Positions 8,703-61,496 of a DNA stretch of 64,000 bases are shown here, piece by piece. Each line of letters starts with the position of its first letter. Position 1 is the stretch's first letter. Source of the stretch: Candidatus Gastranaerophilales bacterium (GTDB taxonomy: Bacteria; Cyanobacteriota; Vampirovibrionia; Gastranaerophilales; Gastranaerophilaceae); the NCBI GenBank assembly GCA_944323165.1, contig CALURK010000002.1, forward strand, positions 124,001 to 188,000, written 5' to 3'. A program made the translations under genes and the position numbers. Below the pieces are notes generated by a model. It made no database searches and was not told the origin of the DNA. It saw only the letters and a list, made by a program, of their open reading frames with translations.

Positions 8703-9341
8703 ATGAAAGATTTAGATTCTATAAACAGAGAGAGGGAAGGAAGGGCTAATCTTTCCCAGTATAAAGATTTAATCGAAACTGTATCTAAGGTTGAATATAA
8801 AAAGTTCTCTAACTTAGGTTTAATAGAGTTGTCGGAAGTTATAGGACTCGCAAATTACACAGTGTATTACTTAACGAACAATTCTAAAAGCAAGGATTTG
8901 TACAATACAGCTTATTTGACAAAAGCTATAAAATGGGCTATTAGAAACGAAATGCGCAGACGCTATAAGTGGTATGTAATGAAAAACCAAGAGGTTAGTG
9001 AGCAAGAAAAGATCAAAGATGCTGTATATAAGACAATACTCTCTATAGAAGAAATGGCAGATGCTGATAATCCTACCTTAATAAAGGATAATCACAGAAC
9101 TCCTGAAGAAAAAGCAGAGATTGTAGAATTAAAGAGAAGAATTTGTGATGTAATGAAAAATTTATCCCAAAGAGAGCAAGATTTAATCGAGGCAAAATAT
9201 TTTTATGACAAAAAATTGAAAGATATTTCAGCAGAGTTTAATATATCTCAGTCAAGAATTTCAAGGATTATACAAAACGCGTTGGATAAGATTAAAAAAG
9301 AGTTATTAAAACAGGAAGTAATTGATGAAAACAATATTTGA
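8703..9341 (+). CDS. Sigma-70-family RNA polymerase sigma factor (short, FliA/SigF-like)
   Basis: The 212-residue protein has sigma region 2-like sequence at about 35-90 ([18 protein letters not shown], then [19 protein letters not shown]) and a clear region 4 at about 145-205 ([48 protein letters not shown]) with a helix-turn-helix. Region 1 is missing, so this is an alternative sigma factor. The SQSRISRI recognition helix resembles that of FliA/WhiG-type factors, making it one candidate for the GCCG-type promoters in this window. Its end overlaps the gcvPB start by 17 bp. No anti-sigma gene is adjacent. Confidence 0.85.
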
Positions 9342-12630: not shown

Positions 12631-14124
12631 ATGGGAATGGCAGCATCACAAGTTAGATTATTGCAGCTGACTAGCCGAAAAAATGACATCGGTTATCAGT
12701 TACAAGACTTGTCTTTGCAAAAAACGTCGCTTTCGAGGGATATGAAGAGGGTTACAAAAAATTATCAAAATGCATTAAGTTCCAAGACATTAAAATGGTC
12801 AAATAATGGCGGAGCTTCTTATGTAGATTTAAGCTATGCAACATTAATGCGTCCAGGCTCTTCTAATCAGAATAATCCATACTTATTAACAGATAGTTCT
12901 GGTAAAGTTGTTGTTGATAGCAAGTATCAAAAGTATGCAGAGATGATTTCTCCTGAGGGTAAAGCCGGAGGAAATTGGGATTCTGTAAGGACTCAGGTTC
13001 TATCGAGTTTAACGGGAATTTCTGCAGACAAAATTGATAATTCAGTTTTAACAGAGGATAGTGTAAATGCTGCAGCTGATAATGTCAATGCTCTAATGGA
13101 AAAAGTTGATGAATTACAAGCAGAAGCAGAAATTAGTGGAACAGATATTGATTTCATGGCGGAATGTTTTGGCTCGAGCTGGACAGGTGCTGACGAATCA
13201 AATGATTTGACGAGCGCATCGACAATAGCAGAGGACTATAAAGGTGATAGTACTGTATGGCTTTTGGGAACAGATTTAAGCTCTTCTAAAACAAAATTAA
13301 AATCAATGCTCGATCAAATAGAAACCAGAGTAAGCGCATATTTGTCAGATGATGACATATCAGCTTTTCAAGAAGCCTGTGAAACTACTTTAAGTAATTA
13401 TGACACCTACTTAGAAACGTCAGGTGAAGATTGTGGCTCTACTTGCCAAACTTCAAAAAATACAAAAGGTGATACTGCCGGATATTATGTAGTAAATATT
13501 CAACTGTTAATGACGGAGCTGTTAAGAAACTATAGAAGTGCCGGTGGTACAACAGATACTAATAGTAGAGGAGAAGAGGTCTACTGTTGGTATGATAAGA
13601 ATTCTAAAGAATATCAGGCTTATATAGAAAAACTAGAAGAATTAGAAGCTGCAAAAGAAAACTACAATACATCGGTAGATATCAACAATCAGGTTCTTAC
13701 AGCAGAAGAGGAAAGTTTGATAAACTTCTATGATCAAATGTTTTCTGCAATAGCAGACAATGGCTGGGTTGCTGATGCACAAGTTGAAGATAATAATTAC
13801 TTAAATAACATGTTGCAAAACAATCAGTATTACATAACAACAATGGATTCAAAAGAAAATAGTGAAGGGGAAGAATATTTTGAATACAGTACAGATATTG
13901 CTTCCAACTTTGAAAATATTTTTTCTGTAAACGATACAAATGCTCAAAATGATGCTCAAGTTCAATACGAATATGAAAAGAGTGTTATTAATGAAAAAGA
14001 ATCTCGTATTGATACGAGAATGGAGAACTTACAGACGGAACAATCTGCGATTAATGAAATGATAAAAGGTATTGAGTCTGTAAGAAATGACAACACTGAA
14101 AGAACATTCAGCATATTCTCATAA
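12631..14124 (+). CDS. MGM-x-ASQ family large unknown protein, copy 1
   Basis: Unrecognised 497-residue protein, homologous at both ends to the gene at 47620-49203. The N-terminus reads MGMAASQVRLLQL and continues as an amphipathic coiled coil (residues 1-55); the C-terminal 50 residues are another helical coil (INEKESRIDTRMENLQTEQ..., ending in FSIFS). The middle is Ser/Thr/Asp/Asn-rich with few hydrophobic stretches. There is no cleavable signal peptide. N- and C-terminal helices around a variable centre, plus a FliA-like promoter, resemble rod, hook or flagellin-type export substrates, but this is analogy only. AAAGGA lies 13 bases before the ATG. Confidence 0.6.
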   Translation: MGMAASQVRLLQLTSRKNDIGYQLQDLSLQKTSLSRDMKRVTKNYQNALSSKTLKWSNNGGASYVDLSYATLMRPGSSNQNNPYLLTDSSGKVVVDSKYQKYAEMISPEGKAGGNWDSVRTQVLSSLTGISADKIDNSVLTEDSVNAAADNVNALMEKVDELQAEAEISGTDIDFMAECFGSSWTGADESNDLTSASTIAEDYKGDSTVWLLGTDLSSSKTKLKSMLDQIETRVSAYLSDDDISAFQEACETTLSNYDTYLETSGEDCGSTCQTSKNTKGDTAGYYVVNIQLLMTELLRNYRSAGGTTDTNSRGEEVYCWYDKNSKEYQAYIEKLEELEAAKENYNTSVDINNQVLTAEEESLINFYDQMFSAIADNGWVADAQVEDNNYLNNMLQNNQYYITTMDSKENSEGEEYFEYSTDIASNFENIFSVNDTNAQNDAQVQYEYEKSVINEKESRIDTRMENLQTEQSAINEMIKGIESVRNDNTERTFSIFS

Positions 14125-19199: not shown

Positions 19200-21545
19200 T
19201 TAGCTTTCTTTTTCTTCTTTTTTCTCGGAATCTTCATTATCTTTTTCTTGTGCTTTATTTTCAGCCTGTTCTTGCGCTTGAGCTTCTTGTTGTGCCTTTG
19301 CCTGTGCTTCTAACTGTGATTTAAGACTTTCCCATTTTTCTGCAGTATCTATATTTTCCAACTCTTTAAGAGCGTTTTCTAAATCCTCTTTTTGTTGCTC
19401 TGCCTGGTTAAGCAGACTGTCACCATCTTCCTCGCTGCACTGTGTTAAGGAACCGAACATAGGCACTGAGTATTCTCTATTCCATTGAGAATATATCAAC
19501 GGCGCAGACGCCATAGGTGATGTGATTGCGCTTCCTGTTACTTGTCTGAATCCTTTGAAGCTTGTATTACTACCTCCAATATATAAGCTGTATTCATTTT
19601 TTCTCCAAGTAGAAGATTTTAATTTAGATTTGAATTTTATTGAATTACAAATATTAAGTTCATTTTCTACTTGAAGCTTTTGAGAAGAATAATTTTGTAG
19701 TTCTCTGCGTAATTTTGCTAGTTTTTTACGACTTGTTGTTCCTTTAATTTTTGCTTCAGTATCTGCAATCTTAGTTTTTAAATCGTTTAATTGATTGTTC
19801 AAAGCTTCTTTGCCGGCTTTTAATTTAGCTTTAGTATTATATTTAGCCCTAATGTTTGCATCTGTGTATTCGTTAAGTTCTTTTCTGTGAGCATCAGGTT
19901 TCCTTGAATAATTACGCATATAGCTTTCTTTATAAGTATTTAATTCTTTTAAATCTTTTATGTAGCTTTTTTGTGCAGAATCCATTTCTTTTTTGAATAT
20001 TTCAAATCTTTTTTGAGAAATTGTCTGACCGTTGATATCATACCCTCCTCTGGAATTTTGGGTGTATGAACCTAATTTTTCCTGATTTTTTATTCCTGAA
20101 TTTGTGCTGCTAAGTTTATCAAATTCAGTTTTTGACTTAAATCCTGATATAGATCTGAGCTCATTTAAGTTACTTTCAAGCATTGTTTTTTGTTCTTGAA
20201 GTAAAGCACGTTTTGAGGCATTAGTTTCAGTTGCAATTTTATTGTTAAGTTCTGTAATTTTATTATTCAAAGAGGTTTCCATATTTTTGTATTTATCTTG
20301 ATATTTTTTATGAAAATCAGCACTTTTAAAGGAAGTTTTGATTTTTGTACCCCAAGCTTTCATAAACCCGGTGAAACCTCCACCTTTAATATTATTTAAA
20401 TCCTCTTTTACTGCTTTAGCTGTAGCTTTTACTGCATTAACGGTCATGTCCTTAAAAGGTTTAGCAGCCCATCTAGAAACTTTTGCTAAAGTACTGCTGG
20501 AAGATGCTGCTGCACTTGCTGCACTACCAGTTGTAGCACCTGCCGTAGCACCTGCTGTGGCACCTGCTGTGGCACCTGCTGTAGCACCTGCCGTAGCACC
20601 TGCTGTGGCACCTGCTGTGGCACCTGCTGTAGCACCTGCTGTAGCACCTGCTGTAGCACCTGCTGTAGCACCTGCTGTGGCTCCTGCTGTAGCACCTGTT
20701 GTAGCACCTGTCGTAGCTCTTGCAGTGGTACTTGCCGCAGTACTTGTTGTAGAAGATGCTGAACCTAAAGAACGTCCAAGACCTCTAAGTCCAAAAGCAG
20801 AGGTTACACCGACTAGAACTCCGGCACAAATATCTTGTCTTGCTCTTTCTTTTTCTTCTTCAGTAGTTGCATCATTAAGCTTTTCAATTCCTTTACTAGC
20901 TCCAATGATTCCGCTTCCGACACCCCAAGCTAAAACTCCTAATCCAATAATAGGACCTATGACAGGTATAAACGGTCCACCAATACAAATGGCTGTAGTT
21001 ATAAATTTCCCCCAGCTCCATTTTCCGTCTTTATCATTACAAATTTTAGGTATACTTTTGCCTATATTTTTTACAGATTCCCAAGCAGATCCGGCCCATT
21101 CCATAGCTTTACCAAAGAAACCTTTTTTCTTCGGTTTTGAAGCTTTTTTATCAATAGAACCATCTTCTTTTAGCACAGGAGCTTGGAGTTTAGATTGATC
21201 AAGAACGTATGTTCCATCGGCTTTTTTTGCCTTTTTAATACTTTTAATTGTTTTATCTTGGTATTCTATTAATTCTTTTGTTTTTTTGATTTCTTTATCG
21301 CGTTCTTCTAGAAAAGCCTTTGTTTTTGCTTCTTTTTCCTGTTCTTTTAATTTTTTTGCTTTCCAACTTTCATAAGAATCACTACTAGATGAAGACGATG
21401 ATGTTGTTGTCGAATATCCATTCCACGGCATTTGAAAATTCCAAACGTTATTCATCGGCATTGGTGTTGTTTGAAAATTAGAAAAATCGAAATTGTTTGG
21501 CATCCAAAGCGGATTACTGTTAATAGTGTTGAAATTAAAATCCAT
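19200..21545 (-). CDS. Glycine-zipper repeat protein of unknown function (781 aa)
   Basis: Not a recognised family. The N-terminus is Asn/Phe/Trp/Pro-rich (residues 1-50), then a Ser run (about 51-60), a Lys/Glu coiled coil (60-105), and a hydrophobic segment (about 180-210: FITTAICIGGPFIPVIGPII) with further Gly/Ala helices. Residues about 277-338 are about 15 copies of the four-residue unit G-A-T-A. The rest is charged coiled coil (about 390-640), a PSFKG-like NTSFKGF motif near 667-673, and a Gln/Glu/Ala-rich acidic C-terminus. The layout resembles a pore-forming or translocator-like protein, but that is only a guess. ATG at 21545; AAAGGG upstream. A long plus-strand frame (20338-21198) through the repeats is a shadow. 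Confidence 0.6.
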   Translation of the reverse strand: MDFNFNTINSNPLWMPNNFDFSNFQTTPMPMNNVWNFQMPWNGYSTTTSSSSSSSDSYESWKAKKLKEQEKEAKTKAFLEERDKEIKKTKELIEYQDKTIKSIKKAKKADGTYVLDQSKLQAPVLKEDGSIDKKASKPKKKGFFGKAMEWAGSAWESVKNIGKSIPKICNDKDGKWSWGKFITTAICIGGPFIPVIGPIIGLGVLAWGVGSGIIGASKGIEKLNDATTEEEKERARQDICAGVLVGVTSAFGLRGLGRSLGSASSTTSTAASTTARATTGATTGATAGATAGATAGATAGATAGATAGATAGATAGATAGATAGATAGATAGATAGATTGSAASAAASSSSTLAKVSRWAAKPFKDMTVNAVKATAKAVKEDLNNIKGGGFTGFMKAWGTKIKTSFKSADFHKKYQDKYKNMETSLNNKITELNNKIATETNASKRALLQEQKTMLESNLNELRSISGFKSKTEFDKLSSTNSGIKNQEKLGSYTQNSRGGYDINGQTISQKRFEIFKKEMDSAQKSYIKDLKELNTYKESYMRNYSRKPDAHRKELNEYTDANIRAKYNTKAKLKAGKEALNNQLNDLKTKIADTEAKIKGTTSRKKLAKLRRELQNYSSQKLQVENELNICNSIKFKSKLKSSTWRKNEYSLYIGGSNTSFKGFRQVTGSAITSPMASAPLIYSQWNREYSVPMFGSLTQCSEEDGDSLLNQAEQQKEDLENALKELENIDTAEKWESLKSQLEAQAKAQQEAQAQEQAENKAQEKDNEDSEKKEEKES
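20531..20714 (-). repeat. 12-bp tandem repeat (about 15 copies) encoding G-A-T-A units
   Basis: The plus strand shows near-perfect copies of GCACCTGCTGTA with third-position changes (GTG, GCC). Each unit is four codons, so copy-number change keeps the frame, and Gly recurs every fourth residue. The near-identity suggests recent expansion or slippage. Confidence 0.95.
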
Positions 21546-30136: not shown

Positions 30137-31666
30137 TTAAAATTCTTCTTTTTTATCTTTATCCTGAGCAGTAGAATTAGTTCCACTTGTATTGCTGCTG
30201 TTATTACTATTATTATTTGTAGGTATGCCAGCTGCTAGACCTGTACCAACTTCTGGCTCTTCACCTTCTTGCGTGCCTAGTTTTGCAAGCGTTTCAGCTG
30301 ACTCTTCTCCCAGTTGTTCTACAACTTCTTCTGGATTTTCCATGTCTTCAGGCATTTCGAGCTCGAAATTCTCAAGACCTTCCATAGATCCTTCGTATCC
30401 GGCTATAGACTCATCATATATATCGTTTGTAGCAGAATTCAAATCTTGAGTATCTTTTCTCATATCAATTTCTGTTCCGACTTGCCCTGCCCAATCAAAT
30501 TGCTCTTTGGTCCCGATTCCACTCATTACAGCTGCGGCGGTGCCCATTCCAACAAAACCCCAAGCCCAAGCGGTAAAGATACCTCCAGAAGCTGCAAATT
30601 TACTAGCGCTCAGAGCATGTTTTGTTCCTGAAAGTGCATTTATAGATTGTGAAGCACCTTCAACATAGCACATGTTTTGTGTTGATGTATCAAAACTTTC
30701 AGCGTAATCTGTCAGACCTTGAACTTCTCCAACAGTAGAGGCCGCATTGTCATAATCTTCTTGGTATGTGCCCATATCACTATATATATCACCGACTGTT
30801 TCTGTCGTTTCTTCTTGTGTGTCTTGTATACCTATGCCAAGTTCTTGCATAAGAGGTACAAGTTCTTTTAATAACTCTTTTTCGCTATCAGTAAGCTGCT
30901 CTCCTGACTTCATTTTTTCCATTAAAGCTTCATAAGAAGCTTTGTACATATCATATTCAGATTTATTTTCTTCTATAGTTTCGTTAGCATCTTCATTATA
31001 GCACTGAGCTTCATCAGATAGTGCGTTGACTTCATCACTTGCATAACTCATTTCTTCTTGAGCGCTATATAGAGCATTATTTGCATTTACCATTTCATCT
31101 TGTAGTGCATCACAGGCTTTTTTTTGTTCCTTATTGGGCTTGTTTGCTGTATAATTAGCAGCATTAGCGAGTGATAGTGGCGCTCCGATGATCCATCCGC
31201 CAGCTGTTGTGGAACACGCATCTGAATCTATAGCATTTTTGCCTAATAAGCTAGCGGTTGCGTTTGCAGCGCCTGCGGTAACTGTAGTAGAAACTCCTGA
31301 CAGTGCTCCATTTAGTACACCTGTAGAAAGTATTCCGCTCCCAAGACTCATTGCTCCGTCTACAACAGTTCTTGTGACTTGTCCGCCTTGTTTGCCATCA
31401 TATCCTGTTTTATCTTTTGCCTGATCTCTACCATCCTCTTTTGCAGTAGAAAAATCATCATCCTCTATTTCATAGGCATTCTCATCGTCCATCGCTGTTG
31501 CATGCCAGTTTTTTAGTTCACTGTTCCAAGTTTGAGTTATCTCTCCCATATCTTTAGCAGAGATTCCCATGGTATTGTTACCATAATTGTAGTTATACCA
31601 GCATTTGTAAGCGTATGATTGTGAGTTTAATGCATTGCTTAAGTTAAACGAATCTTGAATTGCCAT
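30137..31666 (-). CDS. Large unknown protein of the FliA-like promoter group (509 aa)
   Basis: No family recognised. The N-terminus is aromatic and Asn/Ser-rich with no signal peptide. Residues about 95-175 contain Gly/Ala/Ser/Thr-rich weakly hydrophobic stretches (VDGAMSLGSGILSTGVLNGALSG and TAGGWIIGAPLSLAN). A Glu/Asp-rich helical region (about 180-320) follows, then another Gly/Ala helix (about 355-385: FTAWAWGFVGMGTAAAVMSG), and an acidic then Asn/Ser-rich tail. This alternation of amphipathic coils and Gly/Ala hydrophobic helices resembles translocator-type secreted proteins, by analogy only. GGAGGG precedes the ATG at 31666. Confidence 0.6.
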   Translation of the reverse strand: MAIQDSFNLSNALNSQSYAYKCWYNYNYGNNTMGISAKDMGEITQTWNSELKNWHATAMDDENAYEIEDDDFSTAKEDGRDQAKDKTGYDGKQGGQVTRTVVDGAMSLGSGILSTGVLNGALSGVSTTVTAGAANATASLLGKNAIDSDACSTTAGGWIIGAPLSLANAANYTANKPNKEQKKACDALQDEMVNANNALYSAQEEMSYASDEVNALSDEAQCYNEDANETIEENKSEYDMYKASYEALMEKMKSGEQLTDSEKELLKELVPLMQELGIGIQDTQEETTETVGDIYSDMGTYQEDYDNAASTVGEVQGLTDYAESFDTSTQNMCYVEGASQSINALSGTKHALSASKFAASGGIFTAWAWGFVGMGTAAAVMSGIGTKEQFDWAGQVGTEIDMRKDTQDLNSATNDIYDESIAGYEGSMEGLENFELEMPEDMENPEEVVEQLGEESAETLAKLGTQEGEEPEVGTGLAAGIPTNNNSNNSSNTSGTNSTAQDKDKKEEF

Positions 31667-36887: not shown

Positions 36888-37793
36888 TTATACGATAAAG
36901 AATAAAAAGATTAAAGCTCCGACGGCAAGTGCCGGGACATACGGCAAGTAGTTTCTATTTTCGACTTTTTTGATGTTTTTAATAATGGAGTATGCCAAAG
37001 CTATTCCTGTAATTATTAAAAAAGCAAGTGTATAGTAGTTTTGCCAAGCAGCTTCCATTATTACAACAGATAGTGCAAACAATACTCCTAATATACAGGT
37101 CATTTTATTATTATTTTTATATTGATTGTAGAAAAATATAGGTAGTATAAAAATCATAGATGATATAAATCCCAATAGTAATACTAGTATGATTTCTTTT
37201 CCGAAAATAGCACCTAATGCTCCCGCAACGTATGTGTCAGCTTCACCCATGGCTCGTTTATCCGTAAAAAGATAGCCGGAGCGGGCTAGTATTTCAAGAA
37301 TTATTACGCCTATTAATAAGCCGATAATAGAGTTTATAAACCCACCCATGCCTGAAGTGACAGCGTTGAATATAATACCGCTAATTCCCATTGCAATTGC
37401 TATATTGCAGTCTACGAGTTGTTCTTTTAAGTCTGTACCAGTCATTATTATTAAGCACGAAATCCAAAAAAGGGTAAATAAAGCTTTTAAACTTATTCCA
37501 AACTTAACAAAAGTAAAAGCAAATAAAAGCATTGTAATTATTTCGACAATCGGATATTGTATACTAATTTTTTCTTTACAAAAATAACATTTGCCGCCTA
37601 ACAAAATATATGAAATTACCGGAATGTTGTGCCAGAATAACAATTTATTTCCACATTTTGGACATTTGGAAGGTGGAAAAACTATGCTTTCACCAGATAA
37701 AGTTCTTAAAATAACAACATTATAGAAACTTCCAAGACATAATCCTAAAATACATATCCAGAACAAAATGTAGTGAAATGAATCAATCATCAT
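36888..37793 (-). CDS. pilD: Prepilin peptidase (type IV leader peptidase)
   Basis: Cleaves and methylates prepilin-like proteins at the inner membrane. The N-terminal domain has two CxxC pairs, CPKCGN and CYFCKE (about residues 43-75); the A24 aspartyl protease domain has the catalytic Asp residues in GTDLKEQLVD and GEADTYVAG. About eight membrane segments. The start overlaps the end of the sigma factor gene by 11 bases; ATG at 37793 or the next codon is used with GAGGAG immediately before. Pilin genes are not in the window. Confidence 0.93.
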   Translation of the reverse strand: MMIDSFHYILFWICILGLCLGSFYNVVILRTLSGESIVFPPSKCPKCGNKLLFWHNIPVISYILLGGKCYFCKEKISIQYPIVEIITMLLFAFTFVKFGISLKALFTLFWISCLIIMTGTDLKEQLVDCNIAIAMGISGIIFNAVTSGMGGFINSIIGLLIGVIILEILARSGYLFTDKRAMGEADTYVAGALGAIFGKEIILVLLLGFISSMIFILPIFFYNQYKNNNKMTCILGVLFALSVVIMEAAWQNYYTLAFLIITGIALAYSIIKNIKKVENRNYLPYVPALAVGALIFLFFIV

Positions 37794-38583
37794 TCTCCTC
37801 TTCCGTTTCATTTACAAACAGCTTATACAGTATAGAAAAAGCTTTTTTAAGTTTTCGAGAAACTTGCATTGGGGTTAAGTTAAATTTTCGAGCAATTTCC
37901 TTTTGAGATAAATCGTCGTAATAATAAGCTTTAACGAGTTTTTTAGATTCCGGTGGAAGTTTTTCTATTATTTCTCTCAAGACGATTTTTGTATCTTCAA
38001 GCTCTCTTGCGTCTTTGTAATTTTCTTTTGTGATAACTTCTTCGTATCCTAAGTTGTTAGAATCATTTGTGTATAAATCATCCAAAGAAAGAGTTGAGCA
38101 TCTTCTGTCCACTTGAAAAGCTAAATCTATGTTTTTTCTAGAAACTTTAAGTGCTTCTGCTACATCGTCATTAGTAAGTTCGTTTAACTCCTCAACAGTA
38201 AGAGCCTTAATAAAGCTGTTAATACGAAAGGCAAGCTCTTGCATATGTCTTGGAACTCTAATGGTACTTGTCTTATCTCTCAAGAAATGTTTCATTTCGC
38301 CAATAATGTAGTAACCGGCAAATATTTTAAAATTATCATTGATATTTTCGGAATATGCATCTATCGCTTTTAATAAACCAATAGCCCCTGCCTGTACTAA
38401 ATCCTCAATTGGGTCATAAGAACGTCTTGCAATCGTGCGGGCTATTTTTTTTATAATCGGCAGCATTTGGGTTACGATAAGAGCTTTGGCTCTTGCTTTT
38501 TTATACTTATTAGTTTCAGAATGGTATTTATCCAACCACTCTGAAACTAATTCATAAGTATTTTGCTCGCTCTTATTTTGCAT
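37783..38583 (-). CDS. sigF: SigF/SigB-like group 3 sigma factor
   Basis: 266 residues with regions 2, 3 and 4 and no region 1. Region 2 shows IEDLVQAGAIGLLKAIDAY (about 57-75) and FAGYYIIGEMKHFLRDKTSTIRVPRHMQEL (about 87-116), region 3 LTNDDVAEALKVSRKNI, and region 4 LSQKEIARKFNLTPMQVSRKLKKAF (about 225-249). This pattern is SigB/SigF-like; in cyanobacteria SigF controls type IV pili. Its overlap with the prepilin peptidase gene supports a surface-structure role. It could also read the GCCG-type promoters in this window. No anti-sigma gene is adjacent. The start at 38583 has no strong ribosome site. Confidence 0.88.
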   Translation of the reverse strand: MQNKSEQNTYELVSEWLDKYHSETNKYKKARAKALIVTQMLPIIKKIARTIARRSYDPIEDLVQAGAIGLLKAIDAYSENINDNFKIFAGYYIIGEMKHFLRDKTSTIRVPRHMQELAFRINSFIKALTVEELNELTNDDVAEALKVSRKNIDLAFQVDRRCSTLSLDDLYTNDSNNLGYEEVITKENYKDARELEDTKIVLREIIEKLPPESKKLVKAYYYDDLSQKEIARKFNLTPMQVSRKLKKAFSILYKLFVNETEEENDD

Positions 38584-47619: not shown

Positions 47620-49203
47620 TTACCCATTAAATGTTTTATATGATGCTTCGATGTTATCATTGATAACTTTTTCTACAGCTTCAATTTCTGTAGTAATCTG
47701 TGTTCTTTCGTTATCAAGTCTTTGAAGTTTTAATTCAAGGTTTCTATCTTCTTGTTGTATGATTTCTGTTTTAGCGTTAATTTCTTTATTCTTTTGATCA
47801 TACAAGTAGGTTTCATATTCATATTCTGCATAAGCATCTTTATAAGCATCATTATCTGTTACAGTTGCTGCTTCAAGATTTACAGTTTCATATCTAGTAA
47901 CTTTGCCATCTTCCACTATTGGTATACCAATTGAAACGATCCTGCCTGAAGAGTCAAATGTTAGCTTACATCCACTATTTTCTGTAGCTTCGGTATATGT
48001 ACCGTTCGAAACTAATGAAAATACTTCAACCCTTGCTTGACCAGTACCACTGGAAATCATTTGCTGTTGTTGTAAATCTGCGGTTTTTACAAAGCAAGGA
48101 ACTTGTGTACCAGCTTCATTTTGTTGATAAAACATCTTAAAATCACGAAGAATAGCTGTTTCATCAGGTTTTCCGTTATCATTTCGATACTCTGGATATG
48201 AGTTTGCTATTGCTTCTAAAACTCCTTGGTAAGAAGAACTAAGCAGATCTTGCGATATAGCATAAGTTATATTTCCACCAACTGTTGTTCCTTGATTTGC
48301 CTTATCCGGATCATACTCACTATTCTTTAATTGTGTAGAACCGTCGCCATTAGGAGTTTCTTTATATATTTCTGTAACATCTCCGAAACTGTAAACTGTA
48401 TTACCATTTGCATCTTTACCGACTTCTGTACAAGTTATCTGCTTTGCATATCCATTTTCATCTGTCGTAAAGAATGTATAGCCACTTATTTGGTCGGCGT
48501 ACAAACCACCTTCATAATAGGTTTTAGCGCTTTGGTTATATGTCCAGTCTTGTGTGCTTTCACTATCCCAATCGTAGTCAGGATCGGATTTCTTTACTTC
48601 ACCAACTGTTGTCTGGATAAATACAAATTGTCCTGCACCAGCATTTTTTATAGCATCATCATAGTCTTTTGCTTGTATAAAATCACCATTATCGTTTTGA
48701 TAATAATAATATCCATCATAGTCAGAAACTTCACCATTAACTCCGTGCATGATGCTTTGGTTATCATTGTTTACTTCGTTAGATTGTAATTCATCGACAT
48801 CTTCGTAATAAGTTACAGGAGTCGGTACTGTATAATTATTAATTTTGTTTACATAGTAGTACTCAGGTATGTTATAAGATTCTACAGATTGGAAAGTACC
48901 ACCTTTAATGCAAGCACCATTCTTTTGGTATTTTATTTCAACATTATATGTATCATCTTTTTCTGGAATAATAGATCCTAATGTGAATTCAGAATCACCA
49001 ATCGTACCAGAATATTCGATGGTTTGGAAATCTGTTGTGGTTGGCGGGGTCGGAACTGTCATTGATAGCAAGCTGTTGTATAAAGCTGTTGCTTGTTGTG
49101 ATAGTACTGTTCTTGCCTGGTTGATTTGTTGACCTTGATATTCAAGGTTAGATTGTCGTGCCTGTAAACTTAACAATCTTGCTTGTGATGCTGACATTCC
49201 CAT
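47620..49203 (-). CDS. MGM-x-ASQ family large unknown protein, copy 2
   Basis: 527-residue paralogue of the gene at 12631-14124. It starts MGMSASQARLLSLQARQ followed by an amphipathic coil to about residue 45, and ends with a helical coil (QQEDRNLELKLQRLDNERTQITTEIEAVEKVINDNIEASYK) and FNG. The middle is Asp/Asn/Tyr/Gly/Thr-rich with no Cys cluster and no membrane segment. Both ends are conserved between the two genes and the centre is not, as expected for proteins that share an export or assembly signal and expose different centres. No signal peptide. GGAG precedes the ATG at 49203. Confidence 0.6.
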   Translation of the reverse strand: MGMSASQARLLSLQARQSNLEYQGQQINQARTVLSQQATALYNSLLSMTVPTPPTTTDFQTIEYSGTIGDSEFTLGSIIPEKDDTYNVEIKYQKNGACIKGGTFQSVESYNIPEYYYVNKINNYTVPTPVTYYEDVDELQSNEVNNDNQSIMHGVNGEVSDYDGYYYYQNDNGDFIQAKDYDDAIKNAGAGQFVFIQTTVGEVKKSDPDYDWDSESTQDWTYNQSAKTYYEGGLYADQISGYTFFTTDENGYAKQITCTEVGKDANGNTVYSFGDVTEIYKETPNGDGSTQLKNSEYDPDKANQGTTVGGNITYAISQDLLSSSYQGVLEAIANSYPEYRNDNGKPDETAILRDFKMFYQQNEAGTQVPCFVKTADLQQQQMISSGTGQARVEVFSLVSNGTYTEATENSGCKLTFDSSGRIVSIGIPIVEDGKVTRYETVNLEAATVTDNDAYKDAYAEYEYETYLYDQKNKEINAKTEIIQQEDRNLELKLQRLDNERTQITTEIEAVEKVINDNIEASYKTFNG

Positions 49204-49244: not shown

Positions 49245-49297
49245 ATTACGGCATTTTTTTATAAAAACTTTAGGAATTTTAATAATATTGTTACAAA
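49245..49297 (-). promoter_or_regulatory. Three-part FliA/SigD-like promoter (copy 3)
   Basis: On the minus strand TTTGTAACAA (49288-49297), 15 bp, TAAAGTTT (49265-49272), 12 bp, GCCGTAAT (49245-49252), about 40 bases before the ATG at 49203. Confidence 0.75.
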
Positions 49298-58973: not shown

Positions 58974-61496
58974 TTATGAAATAAGATTTTGATATAACAG
59001 TTTATCAAAGAAGTATAATGTAAGTTGTACAAGTTTATCCATGTCTATTTGTCTATACATAATACTATTCTTGCCCTTACGAGTATCACTACCACCCCAG
59101 TCTTTATTATTTCCGTCTTCTACTCTGCTATCATTATAGCCGGTACCATATGGACAGTCTGGAGTATTGTAATTTTCACATACATCCATAGCTTTTTGTT
59201 GAGCTTCCCTAAATACAGATGTTACCAGTGTTGAATCAATGCTAGAATACTTTTTAATGACTCTACTTAATAGTTCGCTCATTGTAACCTGATAATCAGG
59301 ATCATCTTTTTCATTTGCAAGGTGTACGGTTCCATCTGATGAAATTTCATAGCCACCTATAAGTCTTAAGGCTTCATCATTTCCTCTAGTAGTTTTAGTT
59401 CCATAGTGGGTAAGACCTGTAGTTAAGCTAGAATCAGCATAAGCTGTGTGTTCTGTAAATATTTCCAGATATTCCGGATTTGTTTCTAATTTATTAAATA
59501 TAGCTTCTAAATTATCTAAAACAGTTGTTATAAATGAAGCTCTGGAGTTTTTAGTAGAAGAATTATATGTGTTATAAGTTGTTATCCAAGCTGCTTGAAT
59601 AAGTTTTTTTACAACACTTTCTCCACCCATTTGTTCGAGAGCTGCTTTGCCTTCAGAGGTTTTATTAAATTCTTCAAGAACTTTATTTACAAGGTTGTTG
59701 TATACTGCAGTTGTTTCTTCTTCTTGGAATACAATATTTCCATTGGTATCCATTCCAAATTCTGTATGCATTTTGGATGAATTACCTATTATAGAAGCAA
59801 GGCCGTTTGTTCTAATGTTTTCGAAAGTATCAGCTAATGTACTAGCAGCATCTTTGGTATTTTCACTTTGCTCCTCAGCTATGACTTTTTCTGCAGTATC
59901 TAGGTAATCTGCTAACTTACCATCTGTATCTATATTTCTTAAAAGTGTTACTAAATCATCCATTAAATCATTGCCATCAGTGTAAGCGTTAATTAAGTCT
60001 TTATAATTGCTGCTTGTTAAAGTCTTTGAACCTAGTTTTAATCCATTAGCTGATCCCAATACACTTTCTATTGCAGCTATGCAGGTTTCTTTATATTCTG
60101 CTAATTCTCTGTCTGAAATAAATGGATCTTCTGTAACAATTTCAATAGCGTTGTCTACAGCTTCAGAATTTCCACCCATAAGGTAACTTTCTATGTAATC
60201 CTGTAATTGAGCTTTAAACTCATCAGTATCAGCTCCTGAAGCTATGAAACTTGCAATAAAGCTTTCCAGTGAACTATTAAGATCTTTTAGAAGGGTTCTA
60301 ATTGTTTCTTTGTCTAGTTTATAATCACCATATTCACTGTTGTATAAATCTAGTCCTAATCTTGTTTTTACTTCAGATGCCCTTGTTTGTGTTATACCGT
60401 TTGCGAGTTCATCCGCAAGGCTGTCAAGTAATTCCTCAGCTTCTTCAGTATAAAATTCTTCTAAAACAGGATTTTTCATATCATCTGTAACAAAGCTTGA
60501 TAAATCGAATTCTGCTATTTTAGTGTCTATGTCAAGAAAATCCTTGTAAGTTAATGAGTCTATAAAGCTTGTTTTTGCTTCTTCTATAACTGTTTTTAAT
60601 GCTGTGTTGAAATTTTCCTTTGCTTCTTCTGATCCAAAACTTATATCTTTAAAAATGGATTCAAATACGGTTTCAATAGATTGATCTATGTGTGTATCCA
60701 ATTTTGATTTTACAACAGCTTTTTGCAAATCATTAAGCTTAGAACCATTCTGTTGAGAATAGCCATATTGTGACAGATCAAATGCACTATCACTGCCTTC
60801 TCCCAAGCCTGCTGTAGCTAGATATGCATTAATGATTTCCTTTATCTCATTTTGAATATCTTCGAAGCTTGCATCTTCTGGAATTGAATTGTTAATATAG
60901 TTATTAATGATTTCATTCAATGTTGCATCATCATTGTAGTAATAGTCCAAATCTTTTAACATATCACCTGCAACCTGGCTCAAGTATTCAGAAGCAAAAA
61001 AGTCAGCGGTTGCCTTTCTTTCAATAGATTGAGAATTTTCTTCCAAGTAAGCTTCAAGGTCTTCTGCTTTACCGCCCTCTTTTATAAATTCTTCCACAAG
61101 CGAGCCTAAACTTTCTGATACTGATTTTTTCCAGCCCAAAGAGTCTGAAATTCCATTTGGAGCAGATAGTTTTGATGTAAAATCATTCAAGATTTCATAC
61201 ATTTCAATTTTGTTTTCCATATTGGCAATTTCTTTTGAATCCAAAGCATTTTTATTTTTTAGATTTGTGCCGCTTATTTTGCCACTTTGATTTGTGTCGA
61301 TAGTATTCCAAAAACTATTGATTAAGTCATTTTTTTCTGAATCAGTTGGTGTACCATCCCATTCAAAATTGTCTTCCATATAGTTTCTGAACTCGGTCTT
61401 TGTAACTGCTCCATCGCCGTTTGCATCGGCCTTATTATCCCAGTTACCCTGTTTTGCTAAGAATTGATACACTCTTGAAATACTATCATTTGACAT
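58974..61496 (-). CDS. Giant EF-hand protein of unknown function (840 aa)
   Basis: Begins with two EF-hand-type loops: DANGDGAVTKTE (24-35) and DTNQSGKISGTN (68-79), the second degenerate in its last ligand. The rest (about 90-750) is a long series of helices rich in Glu/Asp/Leu/Asn with repeated spacing such as FxxxLxxxIxxxIxxFI, containing no signal peptide and no membrane segment. The C-terminus (about 760-840) contains a Cys pair (VCENYNTPDC) and closes with hydrophobic LTLYFFDKLLYQNL. No family recognised. GGAG precedes ATG 61496. Confidence 0.6.
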   Translation of the reverse strand: MSNDSISRVYQFLAKQGNWDNKADANGDGAVTKTEFRNYMEDNFEWDGTPTDSEKNDLINSFWNTIDTNQSGKISGTNLKNKNALDSKEIANMENKIEMYEILNDFTSKLSAPNGISDSLGWKKSVSESLGSLVEEFIKEGGKAEDLEAYLEENSQSIERKATADFFASEYLSQVAGDMLKDLDYYYNDDATLNEIINNYINNSIPEDASFEDIQNEIKEIINAYLATAGLGEGSDSAFDLSQYGYSQQNGSKLNDLQKAVVKSKLDTHIDQSIETVFESIFKDISFGSEEAKENFNTALKTVIEEAKTSFIDSLTYKDFLDIDTKIAEFDLSSFVTDDMKNPVLEEFYTEEAEELLDSLADELANGITQTRASEVKTRLGLDLYNSEYGDYKLDKETIRTLLKDLNSSLESFIASFIASGADTDEFKAQLQDYIESYLMGGNSEAVDNAIEIVTEDPFISDRELAEYKETCIAAIESVLGSANGLKLGSKTLTSSNYKDLINAYTDGNDLMDDLVTLLRNIDTDGKLADYLDTAEKVIAEEQSENTKDAASTLADTFENIRTNGLASIIGNSSKMHTEFGMDTNGNIVFQEEETTAVYNNLVNKVLEEFNKTSEGKAALEQMGGESVVKKLIQAAWITTYNTYNSSTKNSRASFITTVLDNLEAIFNKLETNPEYLEIFTEHTAYADSSLTTGLTHYGTKTTRGNDEALRLIGGYEISSDGTVHLANEKDDPDYQVTMSELLSRVIKKYSSIDSTLVTSVFREAQQKAMDVCENYNTPDCPYGTGYNDSRVEDGNNKDWGGSDTRKGKNSIMYRQIDMDKLVQLTLYFFDKLLYQNLIS

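Follow-up and report, generated by a model that had tools for sequence, protein, structure and literature searches.

A 64,000-nucleotide stretch of a Candidatus Gastranaerophilales genome (the window: GCA_944323165.1, contig CALURK010000002.1, positions 124,001 to 188,000) encodes two members, P0002 (47620-49203) and P0001 (12631-14124), of a protein family that starts with MGM-x-ASQ. These MGM proteins are probably substrates, most likely axial ones (filament, tip or hook-like), of a second flagellum-derived type III apparatus separate from the flagellum. That apparatus is not the organism's own flagellum: the flagellum is set aside as the export pathway because flagellin is missing from most of the genomes in which MGM genes occur, and the second apparatus is favored because MGM genes track and flank its gene set. 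We infer that the MGM proteins are exported and polymerize. The initial annotation of the window, which placed the genes that it named at the correct coordinates, had suggested that they might be substrates of some export or assembly pathway that it left unnamed. Such an apparatus does exist, and it can now be named as a flagellum-derived type III set encoded elsewhere in the genome.

The relationship between P0001 and P0002 is weak in pairwise BLASTP (E = 0.005 only, with the N-terminus driving the match), and we therefore built profile hidden Markov models (HMMs) of the two ends from other genomes only, using the first 58 residues of 26 sequences and the last 62 residues of 28 sequences. The N-end HMM matched P0002 with an E-value of 1.3e-32 and P0001 with 1.3e-12, and the C-end HMM matched them with 4.8e-32 and 7.9e-7, respectively, bearing out the shared termini that had been noticed by comparing the two products. 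Their middles, said to differ fully, indeed have no similarity to each other (best E 1.0). Among 498 open reading frames (ORFs) of the same genome, both HMMs retrieved the same seven proteins and no others, namely, P0002, P0001, four paralogues, and a protein of 110 amino acids (aa) that consists of the two ends alone (L115:6728-7060; E 1.5e-3 and 2.1e-4). Two further genes of the window that share the promoter of this pair, P0003 (30137-31666) and P0004 (58974-61496), matched neither HMM, in keeping with the claim that they lack the MGM N-terminus, and no hydrophobic signal peptide was visible by eye at the N-termini of P0001 to P0004, as first stated. The closest relatives of P0001 are MGM genes located divergently from FliMN-FliOPQR operons in non-flagellated genomes.

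Of the 194 sampled genomes of the class, which look like drafts or assemblies from metagenomes, 116 carry MGM genes. These include all 97 genomes of the organism's own family, at 3 to 16 copies per genome, and members of the families labeled f2, f4, f9, and f10. There were 132 N-end and 121 C-end matches, and both ends were kept in 120 proteins of 110 to 607 aa; the proteins matched at a single end were either cut by a contig end or among short forms of 108-110 aa. Positions M1, G2, A5, Q7, and R9 are near-invariant, and the C-end is a leucine/glutamate heptad-like helix. Public genomes contributed 80 loci, nearly all labeled Gastranaerophilales, Melainabacteria, or uncultured gut bacteria. 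An established family explaining these proteins, which by the initial annotation would refute its proposal, was not found: no Pfam or NCBIfam family covers them (sub-threshold coiled-coil matches only), and the family profile retrieved nothing from the sequences of the PDB. Matches to HrpF (E 8e-4) and SPAM were rejected as under cut-off, and Flagellin_N (PF00669) matched neither P0001, P0002, nor any of 33 family members. Several genomes of one genus have paired MGM genes, separated by 17-19 kb, whose N-ends score identically (G053:C2, G061:C11, G084:C3, and G033:C2), and MGM N-ends often stand at contig ends; perhaps these reflect recent duplication or gene conversion acting as a variation mechanism.

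The MGM genes of the window lie behind a sigma-28-like promoter, a motif that was found both in the window and beyond it. The full motif, TAAAGTTT-N11/12-(G/A)(C/A)CGTAA, has four sites in the window, one ahead of each of P0001 to P0004 at 35-48 bp from the start codon, versus 0.0 expected from first-order Markov sequences. Relative to the sigma-28 (FliA) consensus, which we take to be TAAAGTTT-N11-GCCGATAA-like, the -35 element is identical and the -10 element is a GCCGTAA variant. Across the 1.93-Mb genome, TAAAGTTT-N10-14-CGTAA occurs 12 times, against 3 for a reversed control. A looser pattern placed a site within 150 bp of 15 of the 432 ORFs in the examined part of the genome. None of the 15 is recognizable as housekeeping; they encode MGM proteins, unknowns, one flagellin (C2:11325, behind a variant of the promoter), glucosaminidase- and LysM-domain proteins, and two RHS/MORN-repeat proteins. 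Since the total for this pattern separates less cleanly from shuffled sequences (19 sites versus 0-13), it is position, and not count alone, that carries weight. This promoter also precedes the majority of P0002-type genes elsewhere, at a distance of 36-120 bp in the other genomes, and 55 of 83 upstream regions were positive when looser matches were counted.

Some of the other genes behind this promoter encode proteins with recognizable domains. A glucosaminidase-domain protein (L114:7145-7981; PF01832, E 6e-9) could be the enzyme with which the second system pierces the wall, and two large proteins, one of 1,667 aa with LysM (L120:3251-8254) and one of 682 aa with MORN/RHS repeats that reaches the contig end (L114:16903-18948), are candidate companion substrates.

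A genome devoid of any type III system was ruled out by three FHIPEP (FlhA-family) matches. In this genome there are two full-length FlhA genes and one truncated, together with two genes each for FliF, FliP, FlhB, and FliI. One set, accompanied by flagellins, FlgK, and FlgL, makes up an ordinary flagellum. The second, divergent set, found upon searching outside the window for the type III-like apparatus that had been suspected, comprises FliE-FliF2 on contig C3, X346-FliH2-FlhA2 on C16, FliMN-FliO-FliP2 where contig C7 ends, and, on C5, FlhB2, an adjoining FliA-like sigma factor gene, and FliI2, which lies 10 kb away. FlhB2 is followed by a FliA-like sigma gene in five genomes, and the best profile for the sigma gene is FliA/WhiG (E 1.4e-22; 80 bits versus a cut-off of 190). 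In relatives, FliQ2, FliR2, a small secretin-N-like protein, and FliJ-, FliK-, and FlgE/F/G-like proteins complete the set. The core shared by type III secretion systems (T3SS), for which we asked for at least seven of eight components, is represented in the genome itself by FliF2, FliI2, FliMN, FliP2, FlhB2, and FlhA2, and in relatives by FliQ2 and FliR2, the genome's own contig ending just after FliP2. Flagellum-specific genes are also present in the second set, namely, FliE (PF02049, E 6.7e-18) and an FlgE/F/G-like gene (TIGR03506, 119 bits against a cut-off of 70). Curated flagellar cut-offs were missed by FlhA2 (702 versus 772), FlhB2 (333 versus 349), FliF2 (116 versus 130), FliI2 (568 versus 630), and FliR2 (158 versus 169), whose scores also fell under the cut-offs of the injectisome models; FliP2 alone passes the flagellar cut-off (218 versus 217).

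Several small features accompany these loci. Between FliQ2 and FliR2 lies a gene for a protein of 122-130 aa with a signal peptide-like start (L151:8492-8860, L149:16908-17300, and equivalents). The 122-aa form at L151 has a weak match to the T2SS (type II secretion system)/T3SS secretin N-domain (PF13629, E 0.0014, under cut-off) and is reminiscent of the split secretin RhcC1. Where FliG would be expected, FliF2 and FliH2 are separated by a protein of ~340 aa (X338/X346; L110:9762-10802 and L139:17233-18249) that has no family match except a weak one to MgtE_N, whose fold is related to that of FliG. The third FlhA-family gene (L111:16882-18363, on C18) encodes only the cytoplasmic domain (profile positions 315-655) behind an unrelated N-terminal part, and most genomes of the family have an extra FHIPEP match; it may represent a conserved soluble FlhA-C protein. 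Finally, an identical ORF of 81 aa (MAIGARDFIDKLLVEKYAQEK...) is found at L108:15520-15765 (C22), near the flagellar FliP, and at L110:13903-14148 (C16), beside FlhA2, and is possibly an assembly-breaking repeat.

The distribution of the MGM family follows type III genes and not flagellin. In the organism's own family, MGM and FHIPEP were found in 97 of 97 genomes and FliP in 96, while flagellin was found in 22; the remaining 75, all with MGM genes, have no Flagellin_N match. In the whole sample, all 116 MGM-positive genomes have FHIPEP, as do 24 of the 78 MGM-negative ones. A tree of FlhA separates the flagellar copies from a second clade with support of 100/100, and this clade unites the second copies of flagellated genomes with the FlhA of non-flagellated genomes, which have a single copy. 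Family f5 is a point at which long branches come together, and the flagellar/second split does not depend on its rows. Within the family, FlhA2 proteins are 81-92% identical to each other and ~37% identical to FlhA1, and among the matches listed they are full-length with no stop.

MGM genes also lie close to the second set. In non-flagellated genomes, a cassette made of an MGM gene, SYKND (272 aa), p90, and a mini-MGM gene (110 aa) stands 5-8 kb from FliE-FliF2-X338-FliH2-FlhA2, and other MGM genes are divergent from FliMN-FliO-FliP2-FliQ2-FliR2 or 1-10 kb from FlhB2. Because these early examples had partly been picked for closeness, 20 further genomes were taken regardless of MGM position. 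The FliE-FliF2-X338-FliH2-FlhA2 operon was intact in 20 of 20, and the MGM cassette lay within ~12 kb in 7 of 20, compared with a rough expectation of 7-13% for any MGM gene that near (~11 MGM genes in 1.9 Mb). In the genome studied here, the cassette is on C14, with a sigma-28-like promoter ahead of p90 and mini-MGM.

Structure prediction with AlphaFold (AF2) suggests a common architecture. The model of P0002, computed from 20 sequences, consists of a helix (residues 3-46), a beta-rich part (56-449), and a second helix (451-525), with a predicted local distance difference test (pLDDT) score of 82.8 and a predicted template modeling score (pTM) of 0.41. That of a 343-residue relative, computed from 33 sequences, has the same order (helix 3-47, beta 60-265, helix 267-341; pLDDT 89.3, pTM 0.48), and in both the N- and C-terminal helices are predicted to pair around the variable insert. 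For the 343-residue model, rows 1-29 of the VIA-align output are all flagellar axial proteins (flagellins, FlgL, FliD, hook FlgE, and rod proteins; Z 9.2-5.3), unrelated chains beginning at Z 4.9, and Foldseek ranks a flagellar filament first (E 6.4e-4). As modeled, then, the MGM family looks like flagellar axial proteins.

Several observations weigh against the assignment of the MGM proteins to a second apparatus as axial substrates. For P0002 itself, Tc-toxin coils outrank flagellar proteins, and Foldseek gave no flagellar match below 1e-3; we judged the Tc-toxin likeness to be a coincidence of long coils because it is gone for the cleaner 343-residue model. Both pTM values are low, the modeled likeness amounts to two long helices with beta inserts, and a Z of 9 can be common for long helices. 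By hhalign, the MGM family and the genome's own flagellins are related with a probability of 0.1%; in the absence of sequence homology, the family cannot be filed as flagellin. The genes of the second apparatus are spread over several loci, and no outer-membrane channel was identified among them, a genome-wide secretin search not having been made. In 13 of the 20 unbiased genomes, no MGM gene occurs in the examined stretch around FlhA2. Lastly, no MGM genes were detectable in families f5 and f7 although both have FlhA2-type genes (L173-L179), and flagellin is entirely absent from f7; the second system may therefore predate the MGM family or have substrates of another kind.

The foremost competing explanation, which we consider unlikely but worth keeping in view, is that the type III route delivers the MGM proteins into the medium or to a neighboring cell and that they are effectors, adhesins, or translocators, not appendage subunits. 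Each genome has 3 to 16 varied paralogues whose middles are unrelated, which would suit such a role, as would a promoter shared with EF-hand, glucosaminidase, LysM, and RHS/MORN-repeat proteins, but effectors usually keep an N-terminal signal alone, whereas a conserved C-terminal helix and an ends-only form of 110 aa typify subunits that pack through their ends. We regard it as improbable that the MGM proteins are accessories of the true flagellum, such as an alternative filament, cap, or junction proteins. The promoter variant ahead of the flagellin gene and the fold resembling flagellin, FlgL, and FliD speak for this idea, which was nevertheless dropped after the flagellin survey (22 of 97) and is already largely refuted by the 75 family genomes that combine MGM genes with no flagellin. 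Against it stand also the non-flagellated genomes of the tree, which have the second FlhA only, and the MGM cassettes that flank the second apparatus.

Equally improbable is a cytosolic coiled-coil or scaffold role in which the link to export genes is incidental. It would agree with the lack of a visible signal peptide and of a family match, but not with the tight co-distribution, sigma-28-like promoter, cassette synteny, and flagellar-axial fold taken together. We find it least credible of all that the second apparatus is what remains of a flagellum in decay and that the MGM genes are unrelated to it. Flagellar decay is the published view, Di Rienzi 2013 (PMC3787301) describing MEL.A1 as without filament, cap, junction, and L/P-ring genes and reading this as genome reduction. 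Decay is, however, at odds with flagellated genomes that carry both sets, with FlhA2 being a separate and well-conserved clade whose listed matches are free of stops, and with the operon being intact in every unbiased genome.

On the preferred reading, namely, that the MGM proteins are axial substrates of the second apparatus, the following mechanism can be proposed. As flagellin, FlgL, FliD, and FlgE do, the MGM proteins would pack their N- and C-terminal helices into a coiled stem that carries the variable beta domain. By analogy with flagella, completion of the basal body would be the signal for the FliA-like sigma factor to read TAAAGTTT...GCCG(T/A) promoters and switch on late genes. Export signals would reside in the helical N-terminus, and unfolded subunits would exit through FlhA2/FlhB2/FliP2Q2R2. 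The helical ends would then polymerize, or dock on a rod- or hook-like FlgE-F-G protein, leaving the variable middles facing outward. A rod or needle could be built from the 110-aa minimal form, and the long forms, with their variable faces, could be the outer subunits, while the co-regulated EF-hand, glucosaminidase, LysM, and RHS/MORN-repeat proteins might be companion substrates or wall-piercing helpers. More tentatively, Gastranaerophilales could possess a surface appendage unlike both the flagellum and the injectisome, a flagellin-free type III organelle with a filament or tip of MGM proteins bearing interchangeable, fast-diverging outer domains, in which case part of the "degenerate flagellum" would be an intact organelle.

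Each known system resembles this one in part. With flagellin, FlgL, FliD, and FlgE, the MGM proteins share conserved helical ends, a predicted variable beta insert, a sigma-28-like promoter, and their nearest model neighbors. Unlike flagellin (PF00669 and relatives), they occur where flagellin is absent, come as 3 to 16 paralogues, lack sequence homology to it, and have a shorter N-arm of ~45 residues that aligns from flagellin residue 48-49 on. The export parts are homologous to those of the flagellum (FlhAB-FliPQR-FliHIJ and FliEF), including FliE, FliO, and FlgE/F/G-like proteins, but they form a separate clade, score under flagellar cut-offs for the five proteins listed above, and coexist with no flagellin in 75 of 97 genomes. 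As in injectisomes, or non-flagellar T3SS (NF-T3SS; SctC-SctV; Abby and Rocha 2012, PMC3459982), all eight shared core homologues are found without flagellin; the second set differs by scoring under the SctV/SctU/SctJ/SctN cut-offs, by retaining FliE and FlgE/F/G-like genes, by its scattered loci, and in that no secretin was identified. The early-branching NF-T3SS of Myxococcales (PMC3459982) likewise has flagellum-derived export without classical flagellar or needle genes, but it is devoid of FliE, FlgE, and a needle protein, whereas FliE, FlgE/F/G-like, and MGM proteins are present here. Non-flagellated Lysobacter (PMC9927559) retain flagellar genes without flagella; what they keep is part of their own flagellar genes, in contrast to a separate second set that stands beside the flagellum in flagellated relatives.

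Gastranaerophilales, the sister group of the photosynthetic cyanobacteria, are common in the gut, and their incomplete flagellar gene sets have so far been explained as loss of the flagellum. Published accounts of these genes in the open-licence literature, as excerpted, describe no second system, although a description could stand elsewhere, and that literature couples Gastranaerophilales with type III secretion only in two co-mentions, both from papers on unrelated subjects. An apparatus that has FliE and an FlgE/F/G-like gene and for which no secretin was identified would be missed. If our reading is true, part of those gene sets belongs to a second type III machine that is intact and has a sigma factor and a large, variable substrate family of its own. 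The bacteria would then have an unrecognized secretion route or surface organelle, possibly in contact with the host, and this would be a fresh case of flagellum-derived export with a non-flagellin axial family, which bears on the origins of injectisomes.

The features of the window are collected in Table 1. P0003 has no match in Pfam, NCBIfam, or the MGM end HMMs, and a match of P0004 to XopAW, far under cut-off, was set aside as merely EF-hand similarity.

Table 1. Features of the 64,000-nucleotide window, in window coordinates
Feature	Coordinates	Strand	Evidence
P0002, MGM-x-ASQ family, 527 aa	47620..49203	-	N-end and C-end HMMs; AF2 pLDDT 82.8
P0002 N-terminal arm, predicted helix 3-46, starts MGMSASQARLLSLQARQ	49060..49203	-	AF2; invariant family residues
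P0002 variable beta-rich middle (predicted), residues 56-450	47854..49038	-	AF2; unlike P0001 middle
P0002 C-terminal 75-residue helix (predicted), residues 451-525	47629..47853	-	AF2; C-end HMM
P0001, second MGM protein, 497 aa, starts MGMAASQVRLLQLTSRK	12631..14124	+	N-end and C-end HMMs
Sigma-28-like promoter of P0002, TAAAGTTTTTATAAAAAAATGCCGTAA, ~42 bp before ATG	49246..49272	-	
Sigma-28-like promoter of P0001	12558..12584	+	
Sigma-28-like promoter of P0003	31700..31726	-	
Sigma-28-like promoter of P0004	61540..61565	-	
P0003, 509 aa, co-regulated, not MGM	30137..31666	-	shared promoter; no family match
P0004, 840 aa, N-terminal EF hand, not MGM	58974..61496	-	PF00036 E 2.5e-6, above cut-off; promoter
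Sigma-70 family factor, SigB/SigF/SigG type	37783..38583	-	TIGR02980 E 2.5e-45, under cut-off
Sigma-like protein, region 4	8703..9341	+	TIGR02479 (FliA/WhiG, a leading profile match) E 7.4e-14; PF04545

The SigB/SigF/SigG-type factor of the window is a possible, but not the preferred, regulator of the sigma-28-like promoters. Its gene directly precedes one at 36888-37811 whose product appears by eye to be type IV prepilin peptidase-like. Elsewhere in the window, a 781-aa protein (19200-21545) repeats the peptide Gly-Ala-Thr-Ala (GATA) perfectly over a long stretch, at about residues 275-340.
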